Shown here: positions 4,432 through 52,561 of the stretch, one piece after another
Layout: the number at the start of each line of letters is the position of its first letter
Position numbering within the stretch: the stretch's first letter is position 1
NCBI RefSeq assembly: GCF_000006405.1
Contig: NW_003215497.1
Location: 1-57,104 of the forward strand
DNA from: Perkinsus marinus ATCC 50983
Lineage: Eukaryota > Perkinsozoa > Perkinsida > Perkinsidae
Reading direction: 5' to 3'
DNA: 57,104 nucleotides
Notes under the pieces: model-generated
What the model was told of the DNA's origin: nothing
The model's database searches: none
Seen by the model: only the letters and a program-made list of their open reading frames with translations
Translations under genes and position numbers: made by a program

Positions 4432-5045
4432 CTAAAGCATCACTTTCTCATGCTCACTCCACTCATCCCAGTCATTCGTCTTGTCGATACCAGCACCTCC
4501 ATCAAACGACACTTCGAGGTCGTAGATGAAGCCAGGGTCATCGGGACGCACCTCACGTACAAATCACCACCAGTTGCAACTCTCGATGACTCCTCACCTG
4601 GTTTCCTCTAAAAGTTTGATCCATTTTAGCCTTCACTTCAGCGAGTTCGTCATTGTCTAGTTTGTTGAAGTCTGTCGTCTCGAACGTGCTCACAGCTACG
4701 ATTCTCTGATTAATTGGGCGAGGGGCTCGATCTTTGAGTTTCTCTATAAGTCTGTGCAACTGCGACCAAGCTCAGGAAAAAGAGCACTGACTTTCTGACC
4801 TGTTCGTTCGACACCAAATGATGCGGCAGATGAGCTTTAAATCTAAGCCTGAGTTTCTGAACTACTTCAGCCGAGTCAGACGTGGTGGTAAGCCGCGGCA
4901 AAGGCACACGCCTGTGGTATAGTCTGCCGTTCAGTTTAACAAACTCAAGCACCAAGGTAGGCGTTGGGGAATAGATCAACCCGATTCGTCTAGGCCGCAT
5001 ACTGGACTCCTCTGCATCGAAGGCAACCATAACAGGCTTCACCAA
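4432..5045 (-). CDS. CEP19: CEP19-like centriolar/ciliary protein
   Basis: CEP19 sits at the base of centrioles and cilia; in animals it helps recruit the RABL2/IFT machinery that starts ciliogenesis. Three exons are read: 5045-4800, 4759-4598 and 4551-4432, with 40- and 46-base GT-AG introns, giving 175 residues (family about 165). The N-terminal part has RRIGLIYSP and GRLYHRRVPLPRL, matching the family's ILIY...K.R.R..PVR block. The middle has FNKLDNDELAEVKAKMDQ.F..NQ, matching the hallmark LNKLDD.EL...K..MD..F..NQ. The end has DDPGFIYDLEVSFD, matching DPNFVYDIEVEF. All three blocks are in the family order. The gene converges on the tRNA array. The organism therefore very likely makes flagella. 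Identity is from remembered family motifs; the splice sites are inferred. Confidence 0.87.
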
Positions 5046-5218
5046 ATATTACCGAATGAGGACTATTTCAGAGTAAATTGAGGAACCCAAGATTCGAGCT
5101 TCACTGTTACTGATAAAGTTTCCGTTCGCGTATAGAAGCAAGTATAGATTTCTCCACACCAGAAACCTGTGATCCTGAGGGGACGGCTAGAGCGGCCCGT
5201 ATTTGGGATGAAGACAGC

Positions 5219-8200
5219 CTAGGATGTGGATCGGAGTACCCTTCCGCTACGGATACCTGATGGCGAACTGAGCATGATGAAACTCAAAGTACTCCATACC
5301 CTCCGGCGTATCCTCGGTGGGACTTCCTTCACCGCGTCATTCAGGGCATCTGCCCTCGGCGACCTCGGGAAGACTATAATGTTTGTGTCAAGCTCGGCGA
5401 GGCCGATGAAATGGCGAGTAGTTTTGTCTCGAGTACTTCCCCTCAAAGCTTTCATGAAAGAATCCTCGCCACACATTATAACTGGCACCAAAACGTCGGT
5501 TGTTGAGGCAGCCAAGTCGCCGACGAGGGCATGCGCTAGAGCTTCTCGGTCCGCCCACCGCTGGCTGTTCCCCGAATACCCCGTCGCAACTTCAACTCTT
5601 CCTTCCATGCCCGACGCTCTGACACGTTCCCGTAGCAAGCATTGCCTAGTCTCTAGGTCAGTCGCTTTCGGCTTTGATGGATTGTTCTCAGTATTGGCGA
5701 CCAATAGGACGGAAGTGACCAGGTTGTTGGAGAGAGCATACTCTACGATAGCCCAGTGATTCTCATGGATCGGGTCGAATGTACCAAAGAAGACCCCAAC
5801 ACTCTTCGTTATGTTTCCCTCGAACGTGTAGTGCTTGATGCCCTCATCCGCTAGATACTTTAACGCTACCATCCTCGAGTCGGCCTCTATCGGTGAAGCC
5901 AGCCAGTACCTACCATAACTGAGGCCTCCACCGGCAATGCACTCTCTACTATACTCACCTAACTTGACCTCGGATGAGTGTCTCATTGACATCCCCAAGC
6001 CATTGATGGAACGGACTGAACCTGGCCAGGAGGATAGATATCAGCAAGTAGTATAGCGAGCCGTGCCCTTACAATGTGCACGTCATAGGAGCCATGGGGG
6101 TGGACACATCCCTCGATGCAATAGCATCCCGGATGGTTCTTAGACTGGATTTGGCCCTTCCTCCACTGAGCCGCCCCATGCAGACAACCCAACTGCTGCA
6201 TCTCAGTACAGAGTCATCTAAATCACAAACAAGAGTAGCAACGGGTGGTCGTAAGTTCATACCTGAACACGGCTGTACGAGCTTGATCTTGTTGAATAGT
6301 TGGGCCAGTCGGAAGAGTAAGCTGCCGAGCCAGACTGCTACCACAGGAGCGGCCCCCAGCTCTAACAGCAGGACGCTAGAGCCCGCGATCGTCAGAGCCT
6401 CCACGCCATCTATGGTTGATTTGATGAGCTCTTCTCTTGTTGCCGGATCGAATTGCCGAGAGAACGGGTCGACCAGTAGACTGTGGTCAGCAAGCATTTT
6501 CACGCTCACGTCAGCTTTGCCTTTGATCGCGGCGGCTTTATGGAGGGGGGAATCCCATGTAGACACGTGATCAGGGTCAACGCTGGCATGCTCTTTCAGA
6601 AGCTCCGCAATGACTGCTCGATTACGCTCATCACCGGTGAGCGAACACGCCACTGCATCGCCGGGCGATCGAGGCTGAACTGTCGGGCATTTTTCGAATC
6701 GGAGTAGCCTCTTGCGAACAAGGGCCTTGAGCTCAGTAGCATTGCGAACCAAAGGGCTGTAGACGACAGACCCAGAGTTAGGGATCTTAACATTATTGGC
6801 TTGAGTGAAGGAGGTAATCCTCCTATAGGCTCCGGGGCACTCAGAAAGCTGCTGGGTCGTTAGCGTGAACGTCAACCATTCGGTGAGGGATGGAATCCGT
6901 GGGATGCGACTCGTCGGATTTGTAACGGCTTGCATAGAGAAGGAAGCGCCTTCTGCCAGGTTCTCGCGTAGGCCTCCAAGTGCTGTATCATCCTCATGGT
7001 CATGACGCCTGTCCTCTACTGTCCCTCGACTAGCACGCCTACTGTCAACCCCTCCGAGCCGTCCGGCAGTATCAGCCGGTAAGAGCGGCTTCACCAAGGC
7101 CAAGTCAAGTTCAGGTGGTATCAACATGCGTACATAGTCGCCACTGAGACTGTTGATGGTTCTCTGCTTCTTAGGATAGGGCTGTGGATCTGAGTCGCCC
7201 ATTTCCCGCCATCGGCTGAGCTTTCCTTTGATAGCTTCTGTTTGCTTTTCAGCCAATGTCACTGCGACCTGTCGAGCAGCACGCACAAACTCTCGTAAAG
7301 ACTGGCTCGCATTCGTAGGTATCCTTAGCTCGACACGTGGATCTGCCGGAACCGTCGAGGAGCAGTTGATGCTTCGTAGATCGCATGAACTCACCTCGCA
7401 CAGCAAGTGCCTTCCTCAGCCATGCGCCGTCCTCCTTTGCAAGGCCTCGGAATCCAAGGCAAACCCAGTACCTTGAATACAGCACATCTGATGGTGGTCT
7501 TAATGCAATCCATCAAAACGGATAGACATGGTTTCGAGAGAAGTGGAGAGGATAGCCTTACGTTTCGCTGTTGGCCTCCTTGCTGGCCACAGGTTTCACG
7601 ACCTCTATCGTATCGAACATGAATGCTGCCAGAGACAGGGCAGCTACAGTGGCGTCATCCAGCAGGGAGTAAGCCTTCATCACAAAGGTACCGCCGGGGT
7701 GCAGTAAGCCGATGGCCAATAGGAGCTCTCGGAATATTATCGGCAAGCATAGGCTCTCTTGTCTGCACACATTGACTCGGATCACCCATTAACCTATCAG
7801 GAGTGTTACTTGTTTGGATCGTATTGAACATCCATACTCCCATCTGCAGTCACGACGTGACACTTCTCTCCAGTGGCTCGAGATCCGAACCTGGACCATC
7901 GACGACTTACCTGGGCTAAATACTCAGCCTCTCACCATCTCCACATATCCTGAGCAGCGCTCGGCTGAAGGATGTTCCCTGAACCATCCGGACCAGTCCA
8001 CCTGTCGAGACTCGATGGATGAGCTGATCTAGGCACTCGTAACCCACCAACGATCCCGAGTCCGTCTATACAGGGCATCGTCATCCACCATTTGATTGAG
8101 GTCATTTGCCTCATAGTAGGGATTCAGTGAAGCTCCCAGCCACTGCCACTTCTCCACCCAATCTGGGTGAGTTATTGCTGAACAGGAAATTCGTGAACCT

Positions 8201-26094: not shown

Positions 26095-29000
26095 ATGTGC
26101 ACTTCAGCAGAGCGGACCTCGTCCAGTGAGGTCGATGTGATCCTCGATGCAGTGCTCAAGAATGAGGTTACTAGGTCGGTGCAGAAGACTGGTCGTAGAT
26201 GGTCACCAGTGATGGAGAAAGCGGTAGGTGTCAGTGGGCCGCTCGGTGTCGAGTTTGACTTGCTCAGATTCTGGCACTCATCTGTACGGTCTGCTTCTTC
26301 ATCCGTCTATTTGCTGTTATCCGGTGAGTGTGTCCGAGAAGACTCGCTCGGTGTATTCATTCGTAGTTACGAATCCGTCATTCACGAGTTCGATCCTTAC
26401 TTCAATTACCGTACTACTGAGTACCTTAGCCGTGAAGGGTTTTATGAGTTTTGGAATTGGTTCGATAACGGCAGCTGGTGAGGCTGCTGTCCACTGCCAC
26501 CCCTGCCGTTGCCATTTTCCATAAAGGTACCCGCTGGGCCGTGTGATTGGTCAGACACTATACCCGGGCCTGATGACCACATCTGCGGTGTTTCACGGGG
26601 TGAGGCTGTCGACATGCCCATAGAAATTTACGCGTTCCACTTGCCAGGTTCTCAACTTTTTCGGTATATGCGTGAACGTACGTAACGTGTGCGTGTTCAT
26701 GGCTCCTGTTTTCTCGGCATTCACGGCTATCGCTGCCTACCTGTTAACCAAGGAGGTCACTGGTAGGCTACCCAGGGCCGTCGATGCTGTTTGTCAGCAG
26801 TGCGGCCCCTTCCAGGACGTCCAGAGGCAGGACTATTCAGCGCCCTGTTCCTGGGTATCTGTCCGTCGTATCTGTCCCGTTCCGTGGCGGGATCGTACGA
26901 TAACGAGGCGGTGGCTATCTTTGCTCTGACTAACACATTCTACGTGAGCTCTCCTTGGTGTGGTAGTGGGGACTTGGCCATTCCATCAGGTTTTTGTGAA
27001 AGCTGTCAATACTGGGAGCATGCTGTGGTCGATGTTCGCGGCAGTTGCGTAAGCTGGGATGATCATGAGTTTGCTATATGCTACTTGCCGCAGGTACTTT
27101 TATATGGTAGCCTCTTGGGGAGGGTATGTGTTTATCACCAACACTGTATCCATTTACATCTTCGCACTCTTGGTCCTCGGCAAATTCAACAAGAGGCATT
27201 ATGTCGCGTAAGGATGGGAAAGATAATAGTCAACTCTAGTGCAATCGGCAATTTCGCGATTTCCATGTGTTGGCAATAGGAGTGTTAAAACTGCGTCTTC
27301 ATGGTTGCCGTTATGAAGTCGTATTGGCACGATCAGGTACACCGTGTTTTATATAATTGGCACGATGTTTTGTCTGAACATTCCCTTCGTGAACTTCCAA
27401 GCTGTCACTTCCAGCGAGCACATGGCCTCCCACGGCATGTTCCTCATCAGCTCAGTGTACTGTCCCCCTTGCTACTGCCTTCCCCTAGGCCGTACTGGTA
27501 CTCAGGTACATGCTAGTAGGATATCTCAGGAATATACTGCCAGAGGGAGCCTTTGCTGTAGTCTCAGCTCCTCTTGGTGTCTGCCATATAGACCACCTTT
27601 ATCGTGCTGTTAGGTGATGGGCAAGCTGATGGTGGCAGCTACGGCTTTTGGCTTTTTGGGGCTCTTCATTTACCTAACCTTGACTGGGAGTAAGTCATTT
27701 GTTCTCTACTACTTGAATTGTACGTGTATACCCTCAGAGACTGCCTGGTCTGGTAGGAGTATGACTCTGTTGGATCCCACATATGCGTCGAAGTAAACGG
27801 TTACTGCTACCATCACAACATGGGGAGTAGTTTGGGTGTAGGTATATTCCTATTATAGCCTCAGTATCGGAACATCAACCAACGTCCTGGTCAAACTATA
27901 TTATGGATCTTCATTATTTGCCATTCTTGGCCCCCATTGGCATGTACGGCAACAACACCAACTATAGTGTCTGGTTATTATAGTTCTTTGTTGCAAGGTA
28001 CTACTGCATGAGACGTTTGTCTGATGGTTCCCTCTTCCTGGGTGTATACGGCATCCTAGCAGTCTACTTCTCGGGTGTCATGATCCGTCTCCTACTGGTG
28101 AGTTACTAATACCATCCTTCTGATACTTCCTAGCCCATTCGCTGTTCCCCAGGTTCTAGCCCCAGCAGCATCATGCCTCGCTGGTGTTGGCGCCTCGGTC
28201 GTGGCCTCCTCAGTGATGCCGTACTACGTGACCGATCCCTGCTTCATCTGAACTTCATCTTACAGGTACCTACGTGCATTCAATGATCATGTCGATGGTC
28301 CGAAGGCTAAGAAAGGAAGCAAGCTACCCTATGTGAGGAAGGTCACCGACTGCCGTAATGTTTTTATCCCATCTCAGATGCCCCGGTTCTTAGCTCTGGC
28401 GATTTTGGGGGTCCTCGGTTATCAATGTACCAACTACATCAAGCACTGTGTGTTCACCTCCTCCATGGCCTACAGCTCTCCAAGCATTGTTATGTCATGT
28501 GAGTCTACAGGTGTTGGTCCATGCTCTACAGTGCTAATGTATCAGATCAACTACGTGATGGTAGTCGTTTGATCCAGGATGACTTCAGAGAGGCTTACTA
28601 TTGGTTACGCATGAATACCCCACAGGACAGCAAGATCCTTAGTTGGTGGGATTATGGATATCAGATTACCGTTATGGGCAATCGTACAGTAGGTCTTAAC
28701 GTTGTGGATCTGCAATAGTAGGGTCGACCCTTGCAGGTATTGGTTGACAACAATACATGGAACAACACGCATATCGCCACTGTTGGCCTGGTATTGGCCT
28801 CGACTGAGGAGAACGCCGTGCCCATCCTCAGACGTCTTGATGTGGATTATGTCTTGGTACGACGATAACAACTGTTGCCTGGTCTTATTTTCGAGCCTAG
28901 GTGCTCTATGGTGGAGTTTCCCAATACTCGGGTGATGACATCAACAAGTTCCTTTGGCCGATTCGCATCGGTGCCGGGGTCTATCCCAACCTAATCCAAG

Positions 29001-29418
29001 AGTCAGACTTCATCGGGCCTCAAGGGTAGCTAGGCATGTTAAGTGGTTGTATGCATTCCCCTCATCTTCGTAGGTACCGGGTAGATCAAGCAGCAACTCC
29101 TAGAATGAGGAACTCGGTTATGTACAAGTTGTGTTATCATCGTGCTGCTGAGGTCTCGAGGGGTTATGACTCTGTTAGACAACAACAGATAGGTACTAGT
29201 TAGTGGATGCCGTCTTGAGATCAATGCTGATGATGTTCTCAGGCGTTCCCAATGTCAAGCCGAAGTACTTTGACGAGGTCTTCACATCAGAGAATTGGAT
29301 CGTTCGTATATACAAGGTGAAGGAGCCTGCCAATAGAGGCGCTAAGGCCAAGACAAAGCGCAGTGTTGACCGCAAACATGAGTCGAGATTTGCTGACGAT
29401 ATGGATACTCTATTGTGA
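26095..29418 (+). CDS. STT3: Oligosaccharyltransferase catalytic subunit STT3
   Basis: STT3 transfers the lipid-linked glycan to Asn-X-Ser/Thr sites in the ER lumen. The start ATG is at 26095. After two short introns come the first membrane helix ([19 protein letters not shown]) and the conserved [20 protein letters not shown]. Further blocks are [63 protein letters not shown]-type ([11 protein letters not shown]), [19 protein letters not shown], and the catalytic signature WWDYGYQI near 28640. [18 protein letters not shown] and [13 protein letters not shown] follow, and the C-terminal exon is 29203-29418 with [20 protein letters not shown] and a basic tail. It has many exons with introns of about 40-55 bases. 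Exact splice sites were not all resolved. Confidence 0.95.
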
Positions 29419-29951
29419 ATGAGTACATCCAAAGATGTTCTATGTAGATGAGTAATGAACATAGAACAGCATATAGCCTTTAGTTGTTGTGATCGGCTAT
29501 TACTTTTTTCTCGCTGGAAGTCCACCGAGCTTTTGTGTTAGTAAGAGTCAGTGGTGTTGAATAACACCGTGGTATTGTATTTGCCACTTGCAGATGGATA
29601 TCTCTAACCTCTAAAGCAGTGGAGAGTCTTGCGAGAGCTCCTCTCGAAACCTTAATTGTACCACAGCGCAACATGATGATTCTGATCTGTTGAGAGGGCG
29701 AGCGCTTGAATTAGCGAATTAGGCCAAAATCGATCAAAATGGCGCAGCGCGATCGGCTCTCTACATGGAGAACTGATTTTACGCAACTCCCCTTCCTACT
29801 CAGTTGAGGTAATACGCGGGTCTTTAAGGGCGTCTCTGTTCACTCTCAGCTCTCGCGGTGTGTGTAGATGGGGTGTTGTTGTTGTCGGCGTTGACCGTCT
29901 CTCGTTGGAATCTACGTCTTCTGAGCCTCGTCGGACTGTTGTTCCCTCAGC
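29419..29951. other. Intergenic region STT3 to uS10
   Basis: There are 533 bases without a supported gene. Just after the STT3 stop is a hairpin with 10-base perfect arms (29436-29445 TGTTCTATGT and 29459-29468 ACATAGAACA). The rest should carry the promoter of the ribosomal protein gene. Confidence 0.5.
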
Positions 29952-30426
29952 ATGGCATCTCCCAAGAGCGCCCAGAAAGGTTACGAGGAGGTTCCCGTCG
30001 AGGAGCCCCTCCATCACATCCGTATCACTCTCACCTCCAGGAACGTTAAGGCTTTGGAGAAGGGTAATGCTAGGGTTCGCCCTCCACCGTAGTGCTGCTA
30101 TTGCAACTGCCATTTAGTGTGCTCCGAGTTGATGGCTGGTGCCCACGAGAACGAGCTTACTGTTGCTGGTCCCGTCCGCATGCCCACTAAGGTCCTCAAG
30201 ATCACCACTCGTAAGTCCCCTAATGGAGAGGGTACTAACACGTGGGACAGGTAATGATCTTACTGGGTACAAGATGAACTCGCCAACACACCTTCATGTC
30301 AGATTCGAGATGCGTATCCACAAGCGTTTCATCGATCTCCAGGCCACCCCTAAGGTTGTGAAGGACATCACTTCCATCTTCATTGAGCCCGGTGTAGATG
30401 TTGAGGTCACCATTGCTCAGAGCTAA
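29952..30426 (+). CDS. RPS20: 40S ribosomal protein S20 (uS10)
   Basis: This is a small-subunit head protein of the cytosolic ribosome. The exons 29952-30063, 30118-30250 and 30303-30426 are separated by 54- and 52-base GT-AG introns and give 122 residues, the usual length. After joining, the conserved order is clear: [73 protein letters not shown] and [19 protein letters not shown]. The start is [14 protein letters not shown]. The gene lies 192 bases before the histone deacetylase gene on the same strand. Confidence 0.97.
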
Positions 30427-30617
30427 GCAGTGTTTTCGTTACCATTGCGGTGCCACCAAAAGCCTGTGATGTGTGGTTTCGTCTCAAGAAGGAGAGCCGC
30501 CATCACCCGCCACTGTTTGGAAGGGTATAACCGTTGCGGTGAAGTGTAATGTATTTGTTGTGTTGTATTATGTCTTATATAGCGGGAGAGCAACAGTAGT
30601 GGTGGTCATAATTCGTG

Positions 30618-33600
30618 ATGACTGGGGACATTATAGCAGGGTCACAGGCTAAAATCCATAGTCTGGAGCACCCACGGAACACCTGGCTGAACGGTCGTCT
30701 TGGCCTCGTTGAGGAGGTAGGTCCTCCATGCGATGTAGCGATGGTACGGTAGGGATGTAGGTGCAGGAAGACGGCTTCGTTGTGTTCACTCTCAAGGAGC
30801 TGCATCCTCATCGAGGTGCTATAATACCATGCTCACTGACGTTATTGAGCTCACGAAATCAGGTAGCCTCCCGGAAGCCGAACCGCAACGTATTCGACTG
30901 CACTCTCGGAATTTGGAACCCTTCGCTGGTCCACAAACGGAGTTGGCGATGGAGGGCGATTTGGAAATCCATCAAGGTATGATCCGCCGCTATTGCTAGT
31001 ACTGAGGTGTCGGGTCTATCTAAGGATGCAAGGCGCGGATCACTGGTCTGGTGAAACACAGCGGATTCAATGGCGTAGAATGTATAGTGGATAAGTGGCA
31101 TATGGACAAGGAAAGGTACACTACTAGTCGAGTACCCCATGGGGCCGACAATAGATTGGAGCCCCTCTCATCTACTACTTCAATTGGTCAGGTGGATAGT
31201 ACGTCTGCAAGGGTCTCCTGACAAGCGAGTACTTGTACGTGAGCGCAATCTACAGCTTGTGGACGGTCTCAAGAACGAAGACAAAGTTGCCAGCGAGTAA
31301 TCCAACTCACTGCTGCTTTCCATATACCATCACTCGTGCCTCCCACAGGGTCCTGAAACCCCAGTTCTGGAAAGATGCAGTGCCAGACCCATCTGATCCA
31401 CGTTCTCTTATCGGTCGCTACGTTAAAAGGACCTTTAGTGGTACTCCCGTGTATGGGAAGATCCTCCGATGGTAGTGTGGGCGCGCTGGTGATTACAGTA
31501 TACCTCATTATAGGTATGGCCCTCGTCTGGGTTTCTTCATCCGATATGAAGACGGCGAAAGCGAGCACTGCTCGGTCAGTGCTGTGAGACGCATCATCAT
31601 CCGGAGTCAAACTCCGGATATCTCTCTGCAAGACCGACGGCTGGCTGATCGGAAAATTGGAGAATACCCATCGAGGTGGCGACATTGTCGTACACGATCT
31701 GATTTACGACTGTGCCGTTGTTACTCAGTCCGTCATCAAGCTCATCATCAGAATCAGGAGAGGGACACTCTAGTACGGCACGGAAACGACGGTTGAGGTC
31801 GCCTCCCATAGCGAGGCCTAAGGTGGGGTAGCCCCTATCGCCTCTGTAGAGCTCTATCTCAGTGGTGTAGGTGCTGCGAAAGCTCTCGACAACTGAGCGT
31901 GTCCCTAGAGCTGGGCAATGGGTGGACCGTGACGACCTCCCAGCCAAGTACAGAACTGTTCTTGATCAAAGTTGATGTCATCTCCGCTCAGGTCCGTGTA
32001 TGACTTGGTCAGTGATGGGCCGATCGATAGACCCTTGTTGTTGTATAATCCACTGTTCATTAAACATAATGGTGGGGCTCAGGACAAGCACGGCAGGTAG
32101 CGCTCGCCCCGGGTGTGCGATCAGCAACAATAACATTTGCGGTACTTCAGATGGGTACGCAGTATCAAACGAGTGTTGCAGACTCGAAAACGTTATATCG
32201 TGCCAGACTGTAAGGAATCTCTATGGGACTCCTGTGCATGGGCGGACAGTGTGTCCAGTCCTGTCACCATCCCTGATGTAGACAAGACGCACCGTCGTCG
32301 AGGTGTTATCACCTATACAGGTCCTCGTTACTAACATACACTCTAAACGCTACCTCCATGATTTGGTTTCTATTGATAATTATCTACAACAACAAGTGGA
32401 GCTCAAAGACAAGCCTCTAGAGGAAATAGCCGACAGTGAGCTCCCTGTAGGACGACAGGCTCATCTCCCTCTCCTCACCATCCATCCCAGGTCGTAGATT
32501 TGTGCTCTAAACGTTGCGCCAGACTTGTCGGAAGAGCACTCACATTATGGCCAGGGGAATGCTGTATGGATCCCTATACTCTAAAGGCCGCCCTCCTCCG
32601 TTGTGGTATGATGCGGGATGCCCTTGTGGCGGTGAGGCCCTTCTGTTAGCCCCAGTTGAAGACCCTACTCAGTTAGGTCCTCTCTGGTAGTGTCCCTACA
32701 GCGTTTGTCCTGGCTCGTCCGGCATGCCATCATGTACCATATCGTGTGAAATCGGAAGATATCCACATCGAAGATGTAAGGACCGTCTCTCACAGCTTTT
32801 CCTATAGGGCCGCTGCTTCTACCAGGACATGCCCGAATTGAACGTCGTCGTCGAGTCGCCCGCCATCAAGTTCATGAACTCGCCACAGAACAAGGGTGCT
32901 AGAACTGCAGAGGGTGTGTCCATCGCTGGGATGTACGGCGCTGATGTTGCGGGAGAGGCAGTCACATATAAGTTGCCAGATGTGAAGGGTGTCGAGAGCA
33001 AGCTGATAACGATTACATGCTCAATTGTGACCGGGAGGGCTGCAGTAAGAGTTGGCATGTATACTGCCTCCCCGACCCTCTGCCGAAATCCATCCTAAAG
33101 AGGCCGGAGTTCATGTCTAGAAATTGGTAAGCAATTGGTGTCGACGTGCTTCCCTCAGTTGTTCATGATGGTGTCCTGAGGTACTGTCCAGCTTGTCTGG
33201 AGGCTCCTGGGCTCATCAAGCCGCAGGAAGCTGATGAGATGAGAGCATTCGTGGCCTCGTTAGTGGAGAACTCTGTGGATGAATCGGGCAAGTTTTGGTA
33301 TGGCCACAGGATATGTTATTTCTCGGTGATAGTGATTCCCGGCATGAACCTAGCGAGCTCAGAACTGGATGATGATGCTGTGGATTCCGACATTGCTCAG
33401 TCGGACATGTCCGAGAACGCCCCCTTGATGGGTTCTGCCATGAACATCAAGCCTGGTGACGAGGTGATCCATACCCGTCGCCGTTATAGTCGAGACCTTC
33501 CTTTGCGTAGTTGTCTCTGGGCTTCTGTTTCGTCAACGCCGTTGCATACGCCATTAAGGTGGCGCAAGCGGCGGCGGTCCACGAGGGCCGTAGAATTAAA

Positions 33601-34632
33601 TTTGCGATACTAGACGTCGACGTAAGATGACGATCTGGATAGGAGGCCGATTGTTGAAGGCTGCCACGTTAGGTCCATCATGGTAACGGTAACGAGTCTG
33701 CTTTCTATCGAGATGCGGACGTCTTGCACATGTCAATCCATCGATGGGGTAAATCCCGAGATGGTGGTATCATCATGCCGGGCACGGGGGCCCATACGGA
33801 CCTTGGTGAGTGATAAACGATAACATCTCTCGAAGATTGGAAACAGGTCGGCAAGCATCTGGTGCCCGTGGGATGAACCTCAATTTCGAAATGCGAGAAG
33901 GCGATGGTGATAGGGAATACACTGATGTGGTGACCCAGATCACTCGCCCGGTCCTGGAGCAATGGAAGCCCGATATATTAGTAGGGTCCAGGTCTGCAAG
34001 GAGACTTTTGAACCTTCGTCGTGGCTCAGTTGTTGCTATGTGGTTTCGATGCGCTCGACCATTCACAGTCACAATTCAAGTTCCAGGGGCCGGGGATGGA
34101 CTGTCGCTTGTCACCCGATTGGTGAGTAGACCTTCCTACAATGGCGAGACGTTCCACTATCATCAGGTATGGATGGTTGTATCCATATGTGGCCTCCTGC
34201 CTCGACCACGGTAAAGTAATATGCTGCGCGGAAGGAGGGTGAGTTCCCCATGCCCAGTAGCCTCCACCAGCCACGTCTAGATATGATCCGAAGATGACCG
34301 GTCCGGCCGGGGGTAGTCTAGTCCGCAGCATTCTGGACTATACTGAAGCTACACGTAATGCGGAAGATCTAGATAAAGCTCGTCGAGCAGCGCTGGAGTC
34401 TCTACCGAAGTGTCTCAAGCCCATAACGGACTGGGTAAGATGCTCCTCCCTCGTCGGCGCTGATGCTGGACGTGCTGAATTCTGTGTGGTTTCGGGTGGG
34501 GAAGCCCCGGCGTCATATAGACCCTTCAGGGAATGTATTGTTTCGGCTTATGATGATTGCCTTTGCATCTCTGCAGGGACGACAGCAAGTTTGGCTACGA
34601 CATCTCCATACCAGAAAAGTGGTGTTCCATGA
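30618..34632 (+). CDS. Histone deacetylase with Tudor-like N-terminus and internal PHD finger
   Basis: This is a probable chromatin-modifying enzyme that removes acetyl groups from histone lysines. The ATG at 30618 begins MTGDIIAGSQAKIH. The N-terminal third has segments like chromatin-reader barrels (LIGRYVKRTFSGTPVYGKI; PRLGFFIRYEDGESEHCSV). Deacetylase blocks follow in family order: NIHSKRYLHDLVS, MDPYTLKAALLRCGMMRDAL, LARPACHHVPY, then GFCFVNAVAYAIKVAQAAA, FAILDVDVHHGNGNESAFYR (after a short intron), DADVLHMSIHRWG, MPGTGAHTDLG, MNLNFEMREGDGDREY, PDILLLCGFDALDHS and AEGGYDPK. The His-His pair, DVH zinc site and GGY tyrosine are kept. Between the HH motif and GFCF lies a PHD finger, CEGC...MLNCDREGCSKSWHVYCLPDP and CPAC (about 33000-33200). 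The C-terminal end is uncertain, and the stop used may not be the true one. Confidence 0.82.
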
Positions 34633-35719
34633 AGCTGGCTGGGCTGGCATTGACACCGAAGAGACTCTGCCTCCTCGTTCAACGGTGCCGAAAGCTTCCA
34701 ACGATCAACTGTAGAAATGTTTTCATACATATACTGTGTAGTGTTCCTGAGGGGGTCACCAAATCCATGATGTTGCCACTGTTGGGAGGACTCTCGAAGT
34801 GCACTTGTATGAGCAGCAACCCATGAAAAAAACATCGTACCGAAGAAGAAACATCTGTTATTTTTCAACGGCATGCTCGTATCACTTTAACAAATTCTCC
34901 TTGCTCAGAACCCTCTGATCCAAAATTCTATCTTACAATGATTTCTCCATTCCCACGTTTATTGATCCAGGGGGCACTAATAGAGCCGCTCTACCATAGC
35001 TGCAAAGTGAGGGTAAACAGGAGGCGTGACGCGAGCGGTCGAGCGACGATGACACGACTGAATCGTGTCATCGTCGCCTTAGCAGCTTAAGTAGCCTAGC
35101 AGCAATAGACCTTAGCGAGCTTCAGAGTAGGCAAACTGTGATCTGATCCGTATCTCGCGACAGAAGCTAATACTAGAAGACACATTACTAGGACACAACA
35201 TAGCATGTTTTTCGGGAAAGCGCAACACGGCAAACTGTTCCACGTATAAAACAGATGGAACTCCATTGCGGTTCAGCATATGGGATCTACTGCAATTCCA
35301 GCAGTCAGTACTGGCATTCCAATTCTTCAACGGTTAGGCAGTGCAACAGTGTCAATCTTCCATGACTCAAACGAAATACAAATGCCTCGAAATTTACTAA
35401 AGAACTACGAGGAACTCTTTCGCAGAGCAGTACAACGGACGAGGGGTGATAGGCTATAGCAACGGACCTCTGTCCAAACAAATCAGTGATCTCAACTCCC
35501 TATGTTAGAGGGAATGCTGAATACATATTAACTACACATACAGTCCGGAGTCGCCGAGTCGATAAAATCCCTGCTAGAGAACCAGTGCGCGTCACTGAGA
35601 AGCGTCAGGCTCGATCACGGGGCAACTCGGCGGAATTACGAGGAGCGATTCATGTGATTACCACAATGATCACAACATGATATACGAAATAAGATTAGAA
35701 GGAACAAGATGGGCGGCGA
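34633..35719. other. Intergenic region with strong hairpin
   Basis: This is about 1.1 kb between the end assigned to the deacetylase gene and the TauE gene stop. The first 200 bases may still hold the deacetylase C-terminal exon or 3' UTR. No other gene is supported. The only clear structure is the 15-base hairpin at 35043-35077. Confidence 0.5.
35043..35077. repeat. Perfect hairpin, 15-base arms
   Basis: The arms 35043-35057 (GCGACGATGACACGA) and 35063-35077 (TCGTGTCATCGTCGC) are perfect reverse complements around the 5-base loop CTGAA. It lies between convergent genes. Confidence 0.9.
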
Positions 35720-37193
35720 TCAGCAGAAGTTACCGAACTGAGCAACGTCTTCGCCGTTACGGGCATCGTTTACTGCAGAAATGATACCAGTAGAAATAGT
35801 GATGATCCCGCCTATAGCCACCATAGCTGCGAGCAGTAGGACAAGTATACTGAGGCGTCCTGTCTTTGCTATTAGTTTTGCTACTATGGTCTTGCCCAAT
35901 AGAGCACCAGCGAATGGTAAGACGACGATCCACAAATTCGAAGCGGGAGGAAAGTAACCACCCAATGCGAATGATAGAGCCGTTCCTGAGTGAGAACTAG
36001 TGAAGCTTGCGCTCGCATCAGAGGGTTCCTAATTACTGCTGCTCGTGGCAAATATGACAACTGTGGCAGTGGCAGTAGCCTGCTTGGGGTCGAGGCCAAG
36101 GGAGAGGACAACTCGGATGATGAAAAGTGCTCCAGCTGTCCCAATGATGGAGGAGAGCAGGCCGATGACTGACAGGAAAGGATACTGACCTCGCGAACTT
36201 AGGCGCTCGGGGAATGAATGCGATACTTGAATTTGAGAATAGGAGAAGGCCTGACAGTAGCTTGTTAGAACTAAATTCGACTCCTACCGATAGTGCTAGT
36301 CATCAGGACGAGGCCGATCTTGACAGCGCCTGGGGAGCGTTCTACGGCCACATAACAAGTAGGAATGAGAAGGAGTATGACCACTTGCAGCGCCGCGAGC
36401 CCCCAAAAAGCTACCTCACAGTATGGGATTCCAACCACACCTGAAGAGGCAACCTGTAGCCCTAGTTCGAAAGTTCTATAGGACTTTGAGCGATAGGAAC
36501 AACCGTCCAAGCGCCGCAGTCTATCGGAATACTACTCTGCGTGGCCGAGTTCCCTTTGAGAGGAGGGAAAATGAGGCACACTGCCCATATCAAAGCGACG
36601 ATACTTGTGTACGCTATGAGCTTCTTCCTGTTTGGCATCTCCAGAAGGGGTGGGATTTCTTGAGCCACTTCTGAGGATCTACTCGAATCAGTAGAGTCCC
36701 CCACAGGGATCTGTCTTTTAGCCCGCGTCTCTGCTTTCCACAGTTTGATGCCTTTCTTGCAGGCCATGAAGCTCCCCAGACACGCGTAACAGAAATATAA
36801 AATCAGTATGAACAGTGATGGGAGCCAGGAAAAGATGTAGACGCCGATGAGCGAGCCGATGACTGTGCATGGAATGATGAGGATTACAAAGGGCCACACT
36901 ATGAGGGCCTTGGACTCGTTCCTCGCACGGTATTGCTCGAAGAAGTTGAATAGAATCTGAGAGGATGGGCCTAACGATGATGCCAGGAGGTCCGCCCTTA
37001 CCGCAGCTAATGAAGCTGAGGCGATCAATGCCTGGCTCAAGGCGGTTGCCTCCTTTAGAGGAACTTTGCCGATGAGTCGAAGTACCGGGACGAATAAGAC
37101 GCCACCACCGATGCCCGAGGGCATGCAGAGGAGTGCGATGACGAATATGAGGGGAGCAACTGCTCCCATGTTCTCGATTGGAGGAGCCGCCAT
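35720..37193 (-). CDS. TauE/SafE family membrane transporter, copy A
   Basis: Members of this family move sulfite, sulfonates or other small anions across membranes; the substrate here cannot be told. The start MAAPPIENMGAVAPLIFVIA is at 37193. The first exon (to about 36500) carries the first TauE half: ALLCMPSGIGGGVLFVPVL, KEATALSQALIASASLAAV and a cluster of hydrophobic helices. A hydrophilic loop of about 45 residues (KAETRAKRQIPVGDSTDSS) comes before a further helix. The second half follows after short introns and ends with GGYFPPASNLWIVVLPFAGALLG, a last helix pair and AQFGNFC. The two-half layout with a Gly-rich first helix fits TauE. A paralogue lies upstream on the same strand. Confidence 0.85.
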
Positions 37194-47187: not shown

Positions 47188-50100
47188 ATGCCTTACAGGA
47201 GGAGAAATAACAAATCATCTGCCACAGCTTCTACTACTGGTGTTAAGCCAGTGTCCACTGGTTCCATCCTGGCCAAGGAACCACCGGCTGCAGTAGCGAT
47301 GTCCCCGGTTCCGACCACAGTGGGAGCCGACTCCCCGCTCGAGCCCAAGTCCCCGATGGACCCTATCGAGTCCCCCCAGCCTGCTATGAGCAACGCGGCT
47401 CGTCGACGTAGGAGGCGCCGTAGAGCTCATAAGGAGGTGAGAGTTGTGAACCAAGCTGAATGGTAGTGACGTATTGGTGTATAGGTGGTCCAAGAAGAGC
47501 TCGAGGAACCTGAACCCGTGGAGCTTACCAAGAGCCAGCTGAAGAGGAAGAAGAGGCTCCAGAGGAAGGCAGAAGCTGAGCAGGATCAACCTAGGTCCAT
47601 CAAGGCGGTAAGGACAGCTCGATCTATGGAGCTTCTTAGTAGAGGATCCCTTGTTGCTGTTAGGACCCATCGCTCTTCCCTCCCGTTCCTGACTACCCGT
47701 CGAAGGCTAAGATGGACGCTATCATCAGCGCTACCACGAAGAACAAATTGCGAGATCTCGAATGGGCAGAGTTCCAGTCACTTGTTAACTCGCTTGACAA
47801 GCAGGTGGAGGAGATACGTGCTGAACTGCCTCCCAAGCCGAAGGATAAGAGGCAGACTACGATGCGTCTGCGGCAGCAGATCTATGAGCTGTCTCAGCTG
47901 CCGCCCTCGGACGAGGTCACTGGCATGTTGGAATCGGCTGAGGAGGAGCTCATCCCGACGGCGGCTCACGAGATGTTTAAGAATTTACAGCATCGTATGG
48001 TGTTGGTGAAGAAGGAGCTTAGTGAAGGGCAAGAGGAGCAGAGAGAGAAGAAGAGGCAACAGAGGGAGGAGGCTATCGAGAGTCGACGGGCTGCGAGGCT
48101 CGGCAAGATGCTCCGTCAAGAGGTTACTCATCTGCATGAGGCGGAGCTGCCGATGATATCCACAGGATTTGAGGATGGCGTTCAGGTGGGTTCTTGTCGT
48201 ACGCACTGGTCTTCACCTTCGCAGCTGCTCGTTGTCAGGCTCGTTTGATCGGCTTGCTCTTCCCTCCCGAAGGCCAGCCTTCGATCTTGCCTCGTCTGGA
48301 GAGGTTCACTACGGCCCTTCTCGAGCCTCTCTATGGCGAGACGGGTTTGGTGCGTGGGGTTCGTGTCTCTGCCAATTCGGAGGAGTCTCTGACTAGTGCG
48401 GTGCAGCAGTTGAAGCACATCGACGTCAACAATGTCGTACGCGTGCCCATCCCTAATGACGTCCCTGGTGCCCGTAGACGCGCTGGCGATGTGGTTCGGA
48501 AGCTGGAGGCCTCTGAGCAGTCTCTCTTCATCACCTTTGGTAACGCGGACATAGCCGTCCACGGTCCTGTCAATGGGACTGCGGTCAAGCAGGCAGGAGA
48601 TGATATTAAGGCGGCTATGCGGGCTGCTGCCGACAGAGCTCAGAATTCGGTTACTAGGGTGGTCACGGCCGACACGGAGACGCTACGATGCGTGATGGGC
48701 GATGGTGCGATGGGTCTGAGGAAGATACAGTCCCAGAGTGGGTGCTCTATACAGGCAAGGTTCAATGACCAGCATGCTACGGTCACGGTGAGGGGTCCGA
48801 CCGAGGCTAAGGTTAATGAGGCTTGCAAGGCCTTGAACGACGCCATTAAGGAGGTGGCTCGAGTGGAGGTACCGGTGAAGACAGATGAGCAACGAGAGAA
48901 GCTGTTCGCAGCCAATGGGCTATTGGCGCCCCGTCTGTCTGTTATCAAACGAGAGTATCGGGGCGGCTGTCGTTTTGTGAAGGAGGCGGATGGAAAGAAG
49001 ATAACCGTTATGTCACAAACACAGGAGGAAGCGGATCAGGCTGGCAAGGAGTTGCGCAAGTTGGTTGAGGAGGCGGCCATGACCTTCGAGACTATACCGG
49101 TTCCGAGTGACCACGTCAGCGTTTGGATGCGGCCTGCAAATGTCGAGCTATTGCGGTTGAAGAACCACCTCACTCGAGCCTTTTTCCAACGTGGTGGCAA
49201 AGGGGCTGGGAAGGGGAACTCTGGCCCGACACTGGAGCTAGTTGGTACCCCTGAAGCTGTTGCTAACGCCAAGAAGGACATACCCAAGGTGGTTACTGAT
49301 GCTGAGGTTACCGAGACATTTGCTGTGCTTGGGGCATGTAGTGGTGATGGTAAACTTGTTGATGCCGTTATCGGCACACTGATGAGAGATCGGGCAGCAC
49401 GGCTGAACCAGATTGGGAAAGAGACGGGCACCAACCTCACTCTGTTGGGAGGCAGTGGTAAAGGAAGCGGTCGATCGCCGGTTTCCCGCGGTCAGAACGG
49501 TATGCGTAGGGATATCCGACTCGTCGGCTCTAAGGCTGATGTCGTTCAGGCTAAGAGGGTAAGGACTGTCTAGGAGGCTCATTCGGACTGTATGCTCTGT
49601 GTGGCTGTAGATGCTCGGCCAACTCGTTAACGACTTGAAAGATGCCACGAGCTCGACGGAGACGATCGAGTTCACCATTCCTGAAGACACCGTTAGGTTG
49701 GTGATTGGAGCCAAGGGCAGGACGGTACGCCCGTGCATAGGCGAGTTCGTTGACACTATCGGGATTTTTGCTCAGATACAGCGTATCAAGGCGGTCTCTG
49801 GCGTTTCCTCGATCGATTTTGAGCACGCGGAAGAGGGTGTGTCCAAGTGTCGGATAAGTGGACAACTGGAATCGATTTCCCGAGCTGAGGAGATGGTCAA
49901 AGCCATTTCGGCGGGAGAGCGAGTTGACTTCACCAAGAAGGTTGAAGAACAGGGCAGTTCAGAAGCACCGGTAGAGTCAACTAATTTGGTACATTCGAAA
50001 AGAATTGAGGTTATGCGACGTTCAGGCGATTGAATCTGCCCAACCTGGTCCGCGGGTCCTCAAGGCGCAGGCCGGGTTCAAACCATCAAACAACGATAAA

Positions 50101-50261
50101 AGAACAGGAAAACGTGAGTGATCGGAATATCATTGGTTGTTGCGATCTGACTTTATTCAGGGAATCAGCAAAAAGCTGCCGCTAAAGCTGACTCTGGAGA
50201 CGACGAAGAGTTCCCTGCCCTCAGCGCTGTGGCAGTTCCGCTATCGCTTCGAAGCGGATAA
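47188..50261 (+). CDS. Multi-KH-domain protein (vigilin/Scp160-like)
   Basis: This is a probable cytoplasmic RNA-binding protein acting on mRNA or ribosomes. The start MPYRRRNNKSSATAS is at 47188. A basic run (NAARRRRRRRRAHK) and a charged coil (KSQLKRKKRLQRKAEAEQ) precede a long helical region (RDLEWAEFQSLVNSLDKQVE). Joined after a 35-base intron near 48190, a long exon carries degenerate KH repeats: CVMGDGAMGLRKIQSQSGCS, RLSVIKREYRGGCRFVKEAD and AVIGTLMRDRAARLNQIGKE. A final classical KH, RLVIGAKGRTIQRIKAVSGV, is completed by removing a 48-base intron after GRT. The last exons encode GPRVLKAQAGFKPSNN and QKAAAKADSGDDEEFPALSA before TAA. The EEFPAL end is common in mRNA-binding proteins. Confidence 0.8.
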
Positions 50262-52561
50262 TCACTGCTCGCAGATCGTCAGGAGTGGTCTAGCTGCAGC
50301 TGACTGACTGACTGACAGAGGTTGAGGCCAGAATAGAATCACAAATTACTACTTGTCACACAAAGTGTGGTGGATGATAATTCTACTTCGATTAGTTTTT
50401 TCACGTGTAGCCGATAGAACATATATTTAGTCGTCCTTCTGTATAGAACGGCAAGTGCTCTTTCTATTGTGTTCTGATTAGTGCATAAACATAGTCACTT
50501 GTTGTGTTGTCAAGTGAATGGCCTCGTATGGGTTCGAGTGGAAGGAAAATAGTATGCTCTCCCGGTTGAAAATCGGTGAATAAGAAACGAGTGGATGGAT
50601 CGCGAATGTTGATTGTCGCAATTTGTGATGATACCGCTGGAACACCACTGATGTATCACGCTTCACGTGCGGATCTGCTTTTCGTAAGGAACAGTCACCA
50701 CAGTGACGTGCCTATGATCGTACTTACGCAAAGAAATTTAGAACCCCCATGAGCATCGGTAGATTCTATCTCAAAGCAGAGACGGATTATACTACGTACC
50801 TCTAGTCGTACATCAGCCAACATTTGATCGTTTCATGCTGAACTCCAGTAACTTAGCAGTAAACGGAAACTTTTAATACAAACAATCATGCCCTTTGAAT
50901 CGGGATGCACTTCCCATTCACTTCTGTAGTTTTCAGTAACAACGTAATGGCTTGCTTGAAGTGCTTCAATAGGCAGCTCTCTAGTGTGTTCGCCCGGGCT
51001 TGACTCTGAGTGGCAGTCGAGGAATGGAGAAAGATTATATCGGTCATCTAGCTCCAACTGGGCTGGAACCGCTAGCATACCATCCGAAGGGTTATGCAGT
51101 TAGAGCCACTCAAAGGGTTCGAGGGGCGAAGACACTCACTATTGATGTTGACGCTGCTTGATACTCCTCCTTGCACCTTCGGTACTTCTGTGTTGCCATA
51201 CCAAAGCACAGGATCATACTTCTACGGTAGTTATCGTCCTTCTCATTCTCATAGTAATCGTCTACCTACAGATCAAGTCGACAATCAATAGTCTACTAGC
51301 ATTCGAACCTCGTTATGGCATCGTTGCGATAGGAGGGTCTGTACTTCCCATTGGAAGCACGAGTTCGGTCCACTGTGTTCACTCTGATATTTTGCCGAGT
51401 CGCGGCCTATCGACCAGAAGTCGCTCATCAAATCAACTGCGAGTAACAAGTAAATGATCAGCCCCGTTCCAGTACAATTTACATAACATCTATAGATTCA
51501 TGCCAGGACTGGCGGATAGGAGGTGCCCGATGCACTCACCCGCGGCGAAAGGCCCCACTACAGACCGTAGGATAAGAAGGAAGCTCTGATTCCATGCGGC
51601 ATAGACAATCACGACTCTTAAGAGAATGTCGCTCGAAATCTCCGCATCGGACAATCGAGTTGGCCGAGGCACCGCCTTGAGCGATTGTTACGGTCTACAA
51701 CTTGTAGACTACAAGAAAACAGAGATTAATCTGAACTGACTCAGTTGAGCCCGTCAGTAGTATCAGCTCTAGAAGAGGCCGTCTGTATGTGAGTGAGATC
51801 GTCTGGCTGTGCATTGAGAGCGTATTCCCTGGAGCCCGACAGCGAAGGAGTGGGTGCAGCGGATGTCATCAGAAATCGGACAAGTCGGAGAACTGATGTG
51901 GTAGATCGACCATAACGCAAGATGGTATGCCGTAGTAAACGTGTGTTGCTGTAGAGTTGTCATCAATCCTCGGCCCACCAGCTGGTTAGTCCCATACCAT
52001 CACCGGCAACACTACCTAATACCTGCATCGGGGGTAGGGGTGCACTAGGACCTGAGGATAGGACATCACTCTTATCACACGGATGAATAAGGATCTCGAG
52101 ACATCAATATTGTTACTACTACGAGCATCGAGGATGCTCCCCACCCAGCATATCCATTGCACGCGTGTACAAGACCGTACCACCAAAATCAATCCAACTG
52201 CTCCTCGTGCATATGTGAGAGTCGATGGGAAGCAAATGTCCTAATGCATCCTAATAAGAGTCGAGGGTTTTCTCTATATATCTTCGTGATGCCAAAACTG
52301 TTGTTTGTAGCTCTATAGGTGTATGTTTCCAACCACCATCACAGCAGCATCAATCATTCACTAAGGGCATCGTTCACTCCGCACCCAATGCGATTAACTT
52401 CACCAGACTACTCTAGCAGTAAGTCTATGACAGTCTCCTTTATATTCCACTACTATCCTCAACATTCCCGTTAAACCAGTTTCAACCATTCAAGATTCTC
52501 CCCAGTATTATATCTTTAAACTGCCTCAACAACCGAGCGAGGTCGTCGGCTGGTAAGCACT
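50262..52561. other. 2.3 kb region without a recognised gene
   Basis: This lies between convergent genes. Small frames exist but none shows a known motif: minus 51078-50833 begins with ATG (MLAVPAQLELDDRYNLS), and plus 51158-51457 contains a hydrophobic stretch (VVIVLLILIVIVYL). With introns this short, a lineage-specific gene cannot be excluded around 50830-51480. A TGAC tetranucleotide run (TGACTGACTGACTGACA) is at about 50302-50318. Confidence 0.4.

Follow-up and report, generated by a model that had tools for sequence, protein, structure and literature searches.

A PHD finger inside the active-site loop of a predicted class-II-like histone deacetylase from Perkinsus marinus

The 57,104-nucleotide stretch of Perkinsus marinus ATCC 50983 analysed here (contig NW_003215497.1, hereafter the window) carries a putative histone deacetylase (HDAC) gene on its forward strand whose catalytic domain is split by an insert bearing a PHD finger. 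At the sequence level, the lodging of the PHD finger in an active-site loop, its conservation among relatives and an intact set of catalytic residues are clear. We propose, with a probability of roughly 45%, that the loop-borne PHD finger of this class-II-like deacetylase acts as a built-in receptor for the histone H3 tail and as a ruler along it.

A PHD finger splits the deacetylase domain

The predicted gene spans 30618-34714 (+) and comprises 25 exons encoding, in our spliced model, a protein of 947 amino acids in which 181 residues separate the catalytic His491-His492 pair from the GFCFVN motif (residue 674). The original prediction had placed a PHD finger between these two active-site elements, in a gap of about 0.75 kb, and both points were borne out. 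The motifs follow one another as LARPACHH (His-His codons at 32728..32733, +), CEGC (32981), HVYC, CPAC (33185) and GFCFVN (33520), and the insert (32734..33519, +) measures 786 bp, made up of 543 coding nucleotides (181 codons) and 243 nt in five introns, each 45-54 nt long. The PHD finger itself, residues 543-596 (32981..33196, +, split by intron 33127-33180), carries every ligand of the C4HC3 pattern and matches Pfam family PF00628 with 23.5 bits (E = 5.6e-5), just below the cut-off of 24, the same locus scoring 25.1 bits in the deposited protein P0001. The Hist_deacetyl domain (PF00850) is recovered in two stretches, with 149 bits and an E-value of 2.5e-43 (cut-off 27.9). Given the E-values of the two predicted domains, this arrangement of motifs is not due to chance.

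The N-terminal deacetylase part (32032..32733, +), delimited by alignment, ends at the His-His pair and, taken alone in P0001 (residues 377-492), scores 23.4 bits, which is below the Hist_deacetyl cut-off. The C-terminal part (33520..34300, +; Pfam residues 673-857) runs from GFCFVN to just beyond EGGYD. The full catalytic set is kept: in addition to His491-His492, the protein retains the zinc ligands Asp707 and His709 (DVDVHHG, 33619..33678, +, split by intron 33622-33672) and Asp803 (GFDALD, 34048..34050, +) and the catalytic Tyr852 (EGGYD, 34282..34284, +), all in motifs that align with those of HDAC6 and to which we presumptively assign these roles. The deacetylase fold is present, and the retention of Tyr852 sets the protein apart from vertebrate class IIa HDACs, where a His substitutes for this residue. 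The window protein is predicted to be a class-II-like zinc-dependent lysine deacetylase.

Loop spacing was compared at ten loci of the P. marinus genome (54.46 Mb, 347 contigs). His-His and GFCF are only 7 residues apart at four of them (L014, L015, L016 and L017, the motif sequences of L015 and L016 being identical); the original prediction had taken some ten residues as usual. They are 22 residues apart at L011, and at L013 the loop seems, by eye, to be interrupted by an intron. The remaining four loci are the two near-identical copies of the window gene and its two paralogs.

The spliced model was built from splice sites chosen by frame and homology, and was compared with Perkinsus olseni P0002 and with P0001, the closest deposited protein ('histone deacetylase, putative', Perkinsus marinus ATCC 50983). 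It is identical to P0001 across the first 670 of the latter's 719 residues, and P0001 is devoid of the C-terminal deacetylase part because intron 33464-33510 was retained in it, shifting the frame. The 24 introns measure 41-142 nt (median 47); 23 are of the GT-AG type and one (33288-33332) is GC-AG. The gene start at 30618 was kept as first assigned, whereas the end, initially set at 34632, probably lies at 34714, after a further intron (34435-34576). An older model of 968 amino acids was discarded, as comparison with P0001 and P0002 revealed three misplaced introns and a missed GC-AG intron; for the window protein, the older model underlies the family alignment, the HDAC6 alignment and the comparison with solved PHD fingers, while the Pfam analysis was repeated with the revised one.

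Relatives and origin of the insert

The same domain order is shared by P. olseni proteins P0002, P0004, P0006 and P0007, and by the relatives P0008, P0049 and P0050. P0002 is partial, its PHD finger as deposited lacking the last cysteines; P0004, P0006 and P0007 are P. olseni sequences close to one another, and the window model and P0001 represent a single gene. The PHD pattern, with a constant length of 54 residues, was matched in 10 of the 13 sequences, corresponding to about seven different genes, and went unmatched in P0002, P0003 and P0009. P0050 has a His as its last PHD ligand and DFDVHAG as its zinc motif. Scores against PF00628 range from 33 to 39 in P0008, P0049, P0050 and a paralog on contig 205 (36.2 bits for the paralog) and from 16 to 22 in four P. 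olseni proteins; P0005 yielded no PF00628 match at E 0.1, though it keeps the C4HC3 pattern. Altogether, the PHD insert looks coding, conserved and recurrent in Perkinsus and in P0008, P0049 and P0050, where this family has so far been seen. The three protein searches scored only about 8,000 candidates, making this distribution a lower bound from which no absence in dinoflagellates follows: a search with an eight-row alignment (E <= 1e-20) returned three proteins and one started from P0009 (E <= 1e-30) returned 15. P0051 and P0054 each contain two deacetylase stretches and gave no PHD match at E 0.1.

P0009 exhibits the same architecture without the PHD finger. Its loop of 49 residues (401-449) is a Gly/His-rich linker that keeps the LKPGDE flank before GFCF.

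In a tree of 29 deacetylase cores, the eight family rows form one clade (100/100) that excludes the class II rows. P0004 and P0005 cluster with the window gene (99/97), and P0008, P0009, P0049 and P0050 with one another (96/96). The rows were picked from the matches, leaving aside P0001, P0002, P0003, P0006, P0007 and many class II matches as well as P0038, in which the motif was not found; the tree being devoid of class I and class IV enzymes, it places the family beside class II rows and does not define a new class. The root serves for drawing only, and the contig-205 paralog (L012), P0045 and P0010_d1 sit at the end of long branches, the position of L012 being unsure. Since P0009 falls among PHD-bearing relatives, a loss of the PHD finger in P0009 would be simpler than its repeated gain, taking the class II rows as outgroup. 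From the common position of the inserts and the tree, we infer a single ancestral PHD insertion.

The contig-205 paralog (L012:333-2036; contig 205:216000-219500) is intron-poor and consists of one open frame of 600 codons, which aligns to P0005 residues 308-783 as a single stop-free match of 277 bits. In the window gene, 15 introns lie between residue 321 and the C-terminus. The PHD finger of the paralog precedes its C-terminal deacetylase stretch, the one stretch reported by Pfam, and its N-terminal part was recognized by alignment. GHQ replaces the His-His motif and DFGLYHG replaces DVDVHHG, while the third Asp ligand, the Tyr and the PHD finger are kept. Because two of the three zinc ligands are gone, the contig-205 paralog is probably a pseudo-deacetylase. 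By eye, its N-terminus may sit in another frame (open reading frame 92-655), with at least one intron. Each exon of the deposited P0005 has its match in the second paralog, on contig 93, which has the same domain order as the window gene; P0005 may be a second copy of this locus.

Window probes 5000-6500 and 50000-51500 each found 100% matches on contigs 308 and 88, and window positions 28000-37000 match these contigs at 99.94% and 100%, respectively. Much of the window thus seems triplicated in the assembly, as haplotypes or through redundancy. At 33424 and at both borders of intron 31823-31870 (positions 31823, 31824 and 31870), the contig-308 copy departs from the window sequence; these differences may in part account for the unusual form of the deposited prediction P0003.

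What the PHD finger may read

The Trp located two residues before the PHD His is part of the aromatic cage that accommodates trimethylated Lys4 of histone H3. This Trp is absent from all 10 matched PHD fingers, in which Ser, Gly or Ala takes its place. The best solved matches of the window PHD finger include WSTF, EHD3, KDM5D and UHRF1, and ING2, a reader of trimethylated H3 Lys4, ranks low (E 0.67). The best matches of the P0008 PHD finger include DPF3, ubi-d4, ATXR5, PHF21A and UHRF1, and those of P0050 include Lid, KDM5D, PHF21A, KMT2D and KDM5A. Several of these nearest solved PHD fingers are readers of the unmodified H3 end, which provides a lead towards unmodified-H3 reading by the family. 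The original prediction that reading of methylation could steer deacetylation finds no support as worded, given the missing cage Trp and these nearest relatives; any coupling is more likely to be to the absence of H3 Lys4 methylation.

Possible roles of the insert

If the loop-borne PHD finger does serve as receptor and ruler, it would grip an H3 tail with unmethylated Lys4 by its N-terminus, and this grip would set which downstream acetyl-lysine meets the zinc. Methylation of H3 Lys4 would weaken the grip, such that the methylated tail would be spared from deacetylation. The N-terminal Tudor/SH3-like segments may contribute chromatin contacts, and the contig-205 paralog, with its PHD finger kept, would act only as a binder.

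Several observations weigh against this proposal. Deposited prediction P0003 skips the PHD finger, and the architecture of P0009 suggests that the PHD finger has been dispensable at least once. The window PHD finger falls just short of the Pfam cut-off in the revised model, and those of P0005 and the P. olseni proteins score low. In the structure models, which are those of the relatives P0005 and P0008 rather than of the window protein, the PHD finger is of low confidence (pLDDT, predicted local distance difference test, about 57-61 in P0008), and the models do not place it over the active site with confidence.

It is conceivable, if rather unlikely, that the PHD finger only serves docking or targeting, as a module that a surface loop tolerates and that leaves catalysis unaffected, its ligand being possibly non-histone. 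The Gly/His-rich linker found at the PHD position in P0009 and the low-confidence linkers flanking the PHD finger in the models would fit such a module, but the fixed length of the PHD finger and the conserved G-D/N-E flank before GFCF suggest that it is held in position. Also unlikely is an autoinhibitory role, in which the PHD finger would cover the active-site tunnel like a lid until an H3 tail or a partner binds and it swings off. Such a role is suggested by the insertion point between two active-site elements and by the nested PHD1 of KDM5C, reported to inhibit catalysis (PMC10247153), yet the unconfident PHD position in the models argues against it.

Alternative splicing could also toggle the PHD finger, a short form joining HHVPYR to LSLGFCF and restoring the usual loop of 7 residues. 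P0003, deposited from a contig equal in length to contig 308, contains precisely this join, with a loop of the same length as at the four other loci, which leaves some probability to the exon skipping named as a refutation of the original prediction, but we consider such a switch improbable: P0003 also drops other conserved segments; the contig-308 differences at intron 31823-31870 imply that its prediction may be strained; the frame of the contig-205 paralog runs uninterrupted across this region; and at the contig-93 locus HHVPFR is followed by a Leu, the codons of which cannot provide the same phase-0 GT donor. Finally, an artefact, be it two genes or an intron-borne PHD finger never reaching the protein, would agree with P0001 being deposited without its C-terminal half but is highly improbable considering the single-frame contig-205 paralog and the conservation across species.

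Tentatively, and with less assurance than for the receptor and ruler proposal, we further suggest that these proteins form a separate deacetylase subfamily in which the loop PHD finger lets one chain sense H3 Lys4 status and choose the lysine, while the paralog that lost its zinc site would persist solely as a reader or as a competitor.

N-terminal segments and neighbouring gene

The Tudor-like segments originally noticed at the N-terminus appear as SH3/Tudor-like segments, none of which reaches a Pfam cut-off in the window protein. Two SH3-like 'NG' segments of beta-rich character (roughly residues 1-150; 30618..31296, +) were recognized by eye and correspond to strands in the models of relatives; they gave no Pfam match. 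A PTM/DIR17-like Tudor segment (PF21743; residues 177-223; 31413..31595, +, split by intron 31472-31513) scores 18.7 bits, below the cut-off of 27.2, and 29.7 bits in the relative P0050; its sole match in the PDB was an unrelated chain (E 0.24).

Immediately upstream, a small gene of about three exons on the same strand (29952-30426) resembles, by eye, ribosomal protein S20 (uS10). Its stop lies 191 bases from the deacetylase start.

Comparison with known systems

Perkinsus is an oyster parasite lineage related to dinoflagellates, whose chromatin is unusual. HDACs and sirtuins are more numerous in most dinoflagellates than in the majority of other eukaryotes (PMC4751559). In the part of the openly licensed PMC literature surveyed, no description of a PHD finger nested in a deacetylase domain was found. 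Among human chromatin domains, most co-occur or share a partner, Hist_deacetyl being one of three exceptions (PMC2993927). Oomycete HDACs are reported to carry PHD, AP2 and Med27 domains (PMC5112689); they too combine a PHD finger and a deacetylase in one protein, but their PHD finger is described as N-terminal, not nested. Class II enzymes (HDAC6, HDAC4, HDAC7 and Hda1) are the closest solved relatives of the window family by sequence and fold; the fold matches considered were those to HDACs and their relatives, such that missing PHD structures carry no meaning there. HDAC6 shows no comparable insert in its alignment with the family. The window family suggests that a whole domain can be accommodated in HDACs within the loop that links His-His to GFCF.

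Like the window family, KDM5 demethylases have a catalytic domain whose two parts flank a PHD finger, and the family PHD fingers match solved KDM5 PHD fingers, which we take to be PHD1. The enzyme and its fold are nonetheless different, and the KDM5 reader lies between JmjN and JmjC rather than inside a short active-site loop. In KDM5, ARID and PHD1 separate JmjN from JmjC, and PHD1 is inhibitory in KDM5C (PMC10247153) while H3 binding to PHD1 enhances KDM5A (PMC6327041). The best-known arrangement is that of a reader and a deacetylase on different subunits of a large complex. In the SIN3B complex (PHF12 with HDAC1/2; PMC10156912) and in Rpd3S (PMC10709384), a PHD finger sits over or against the deacetylase, and in SIN3B it was proposed to receive the H3 tail (PMC10156912). 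There the PHD finger belongs to a separate subunit, whereas in the window family it is part of the same chain. A reader built into the loop would offer a single polypeptide for direct testing of the cross-talk between H3 Lys4 methylation and deacetylation and, if the proposal is true, a single protein could inspect the histone tail at the same time as it acts on that tail. The simplest proposal is that the window enzyme would do in one chain the job of PHF12-PHD1 over HDAC2, or of KDM5 PHD1.
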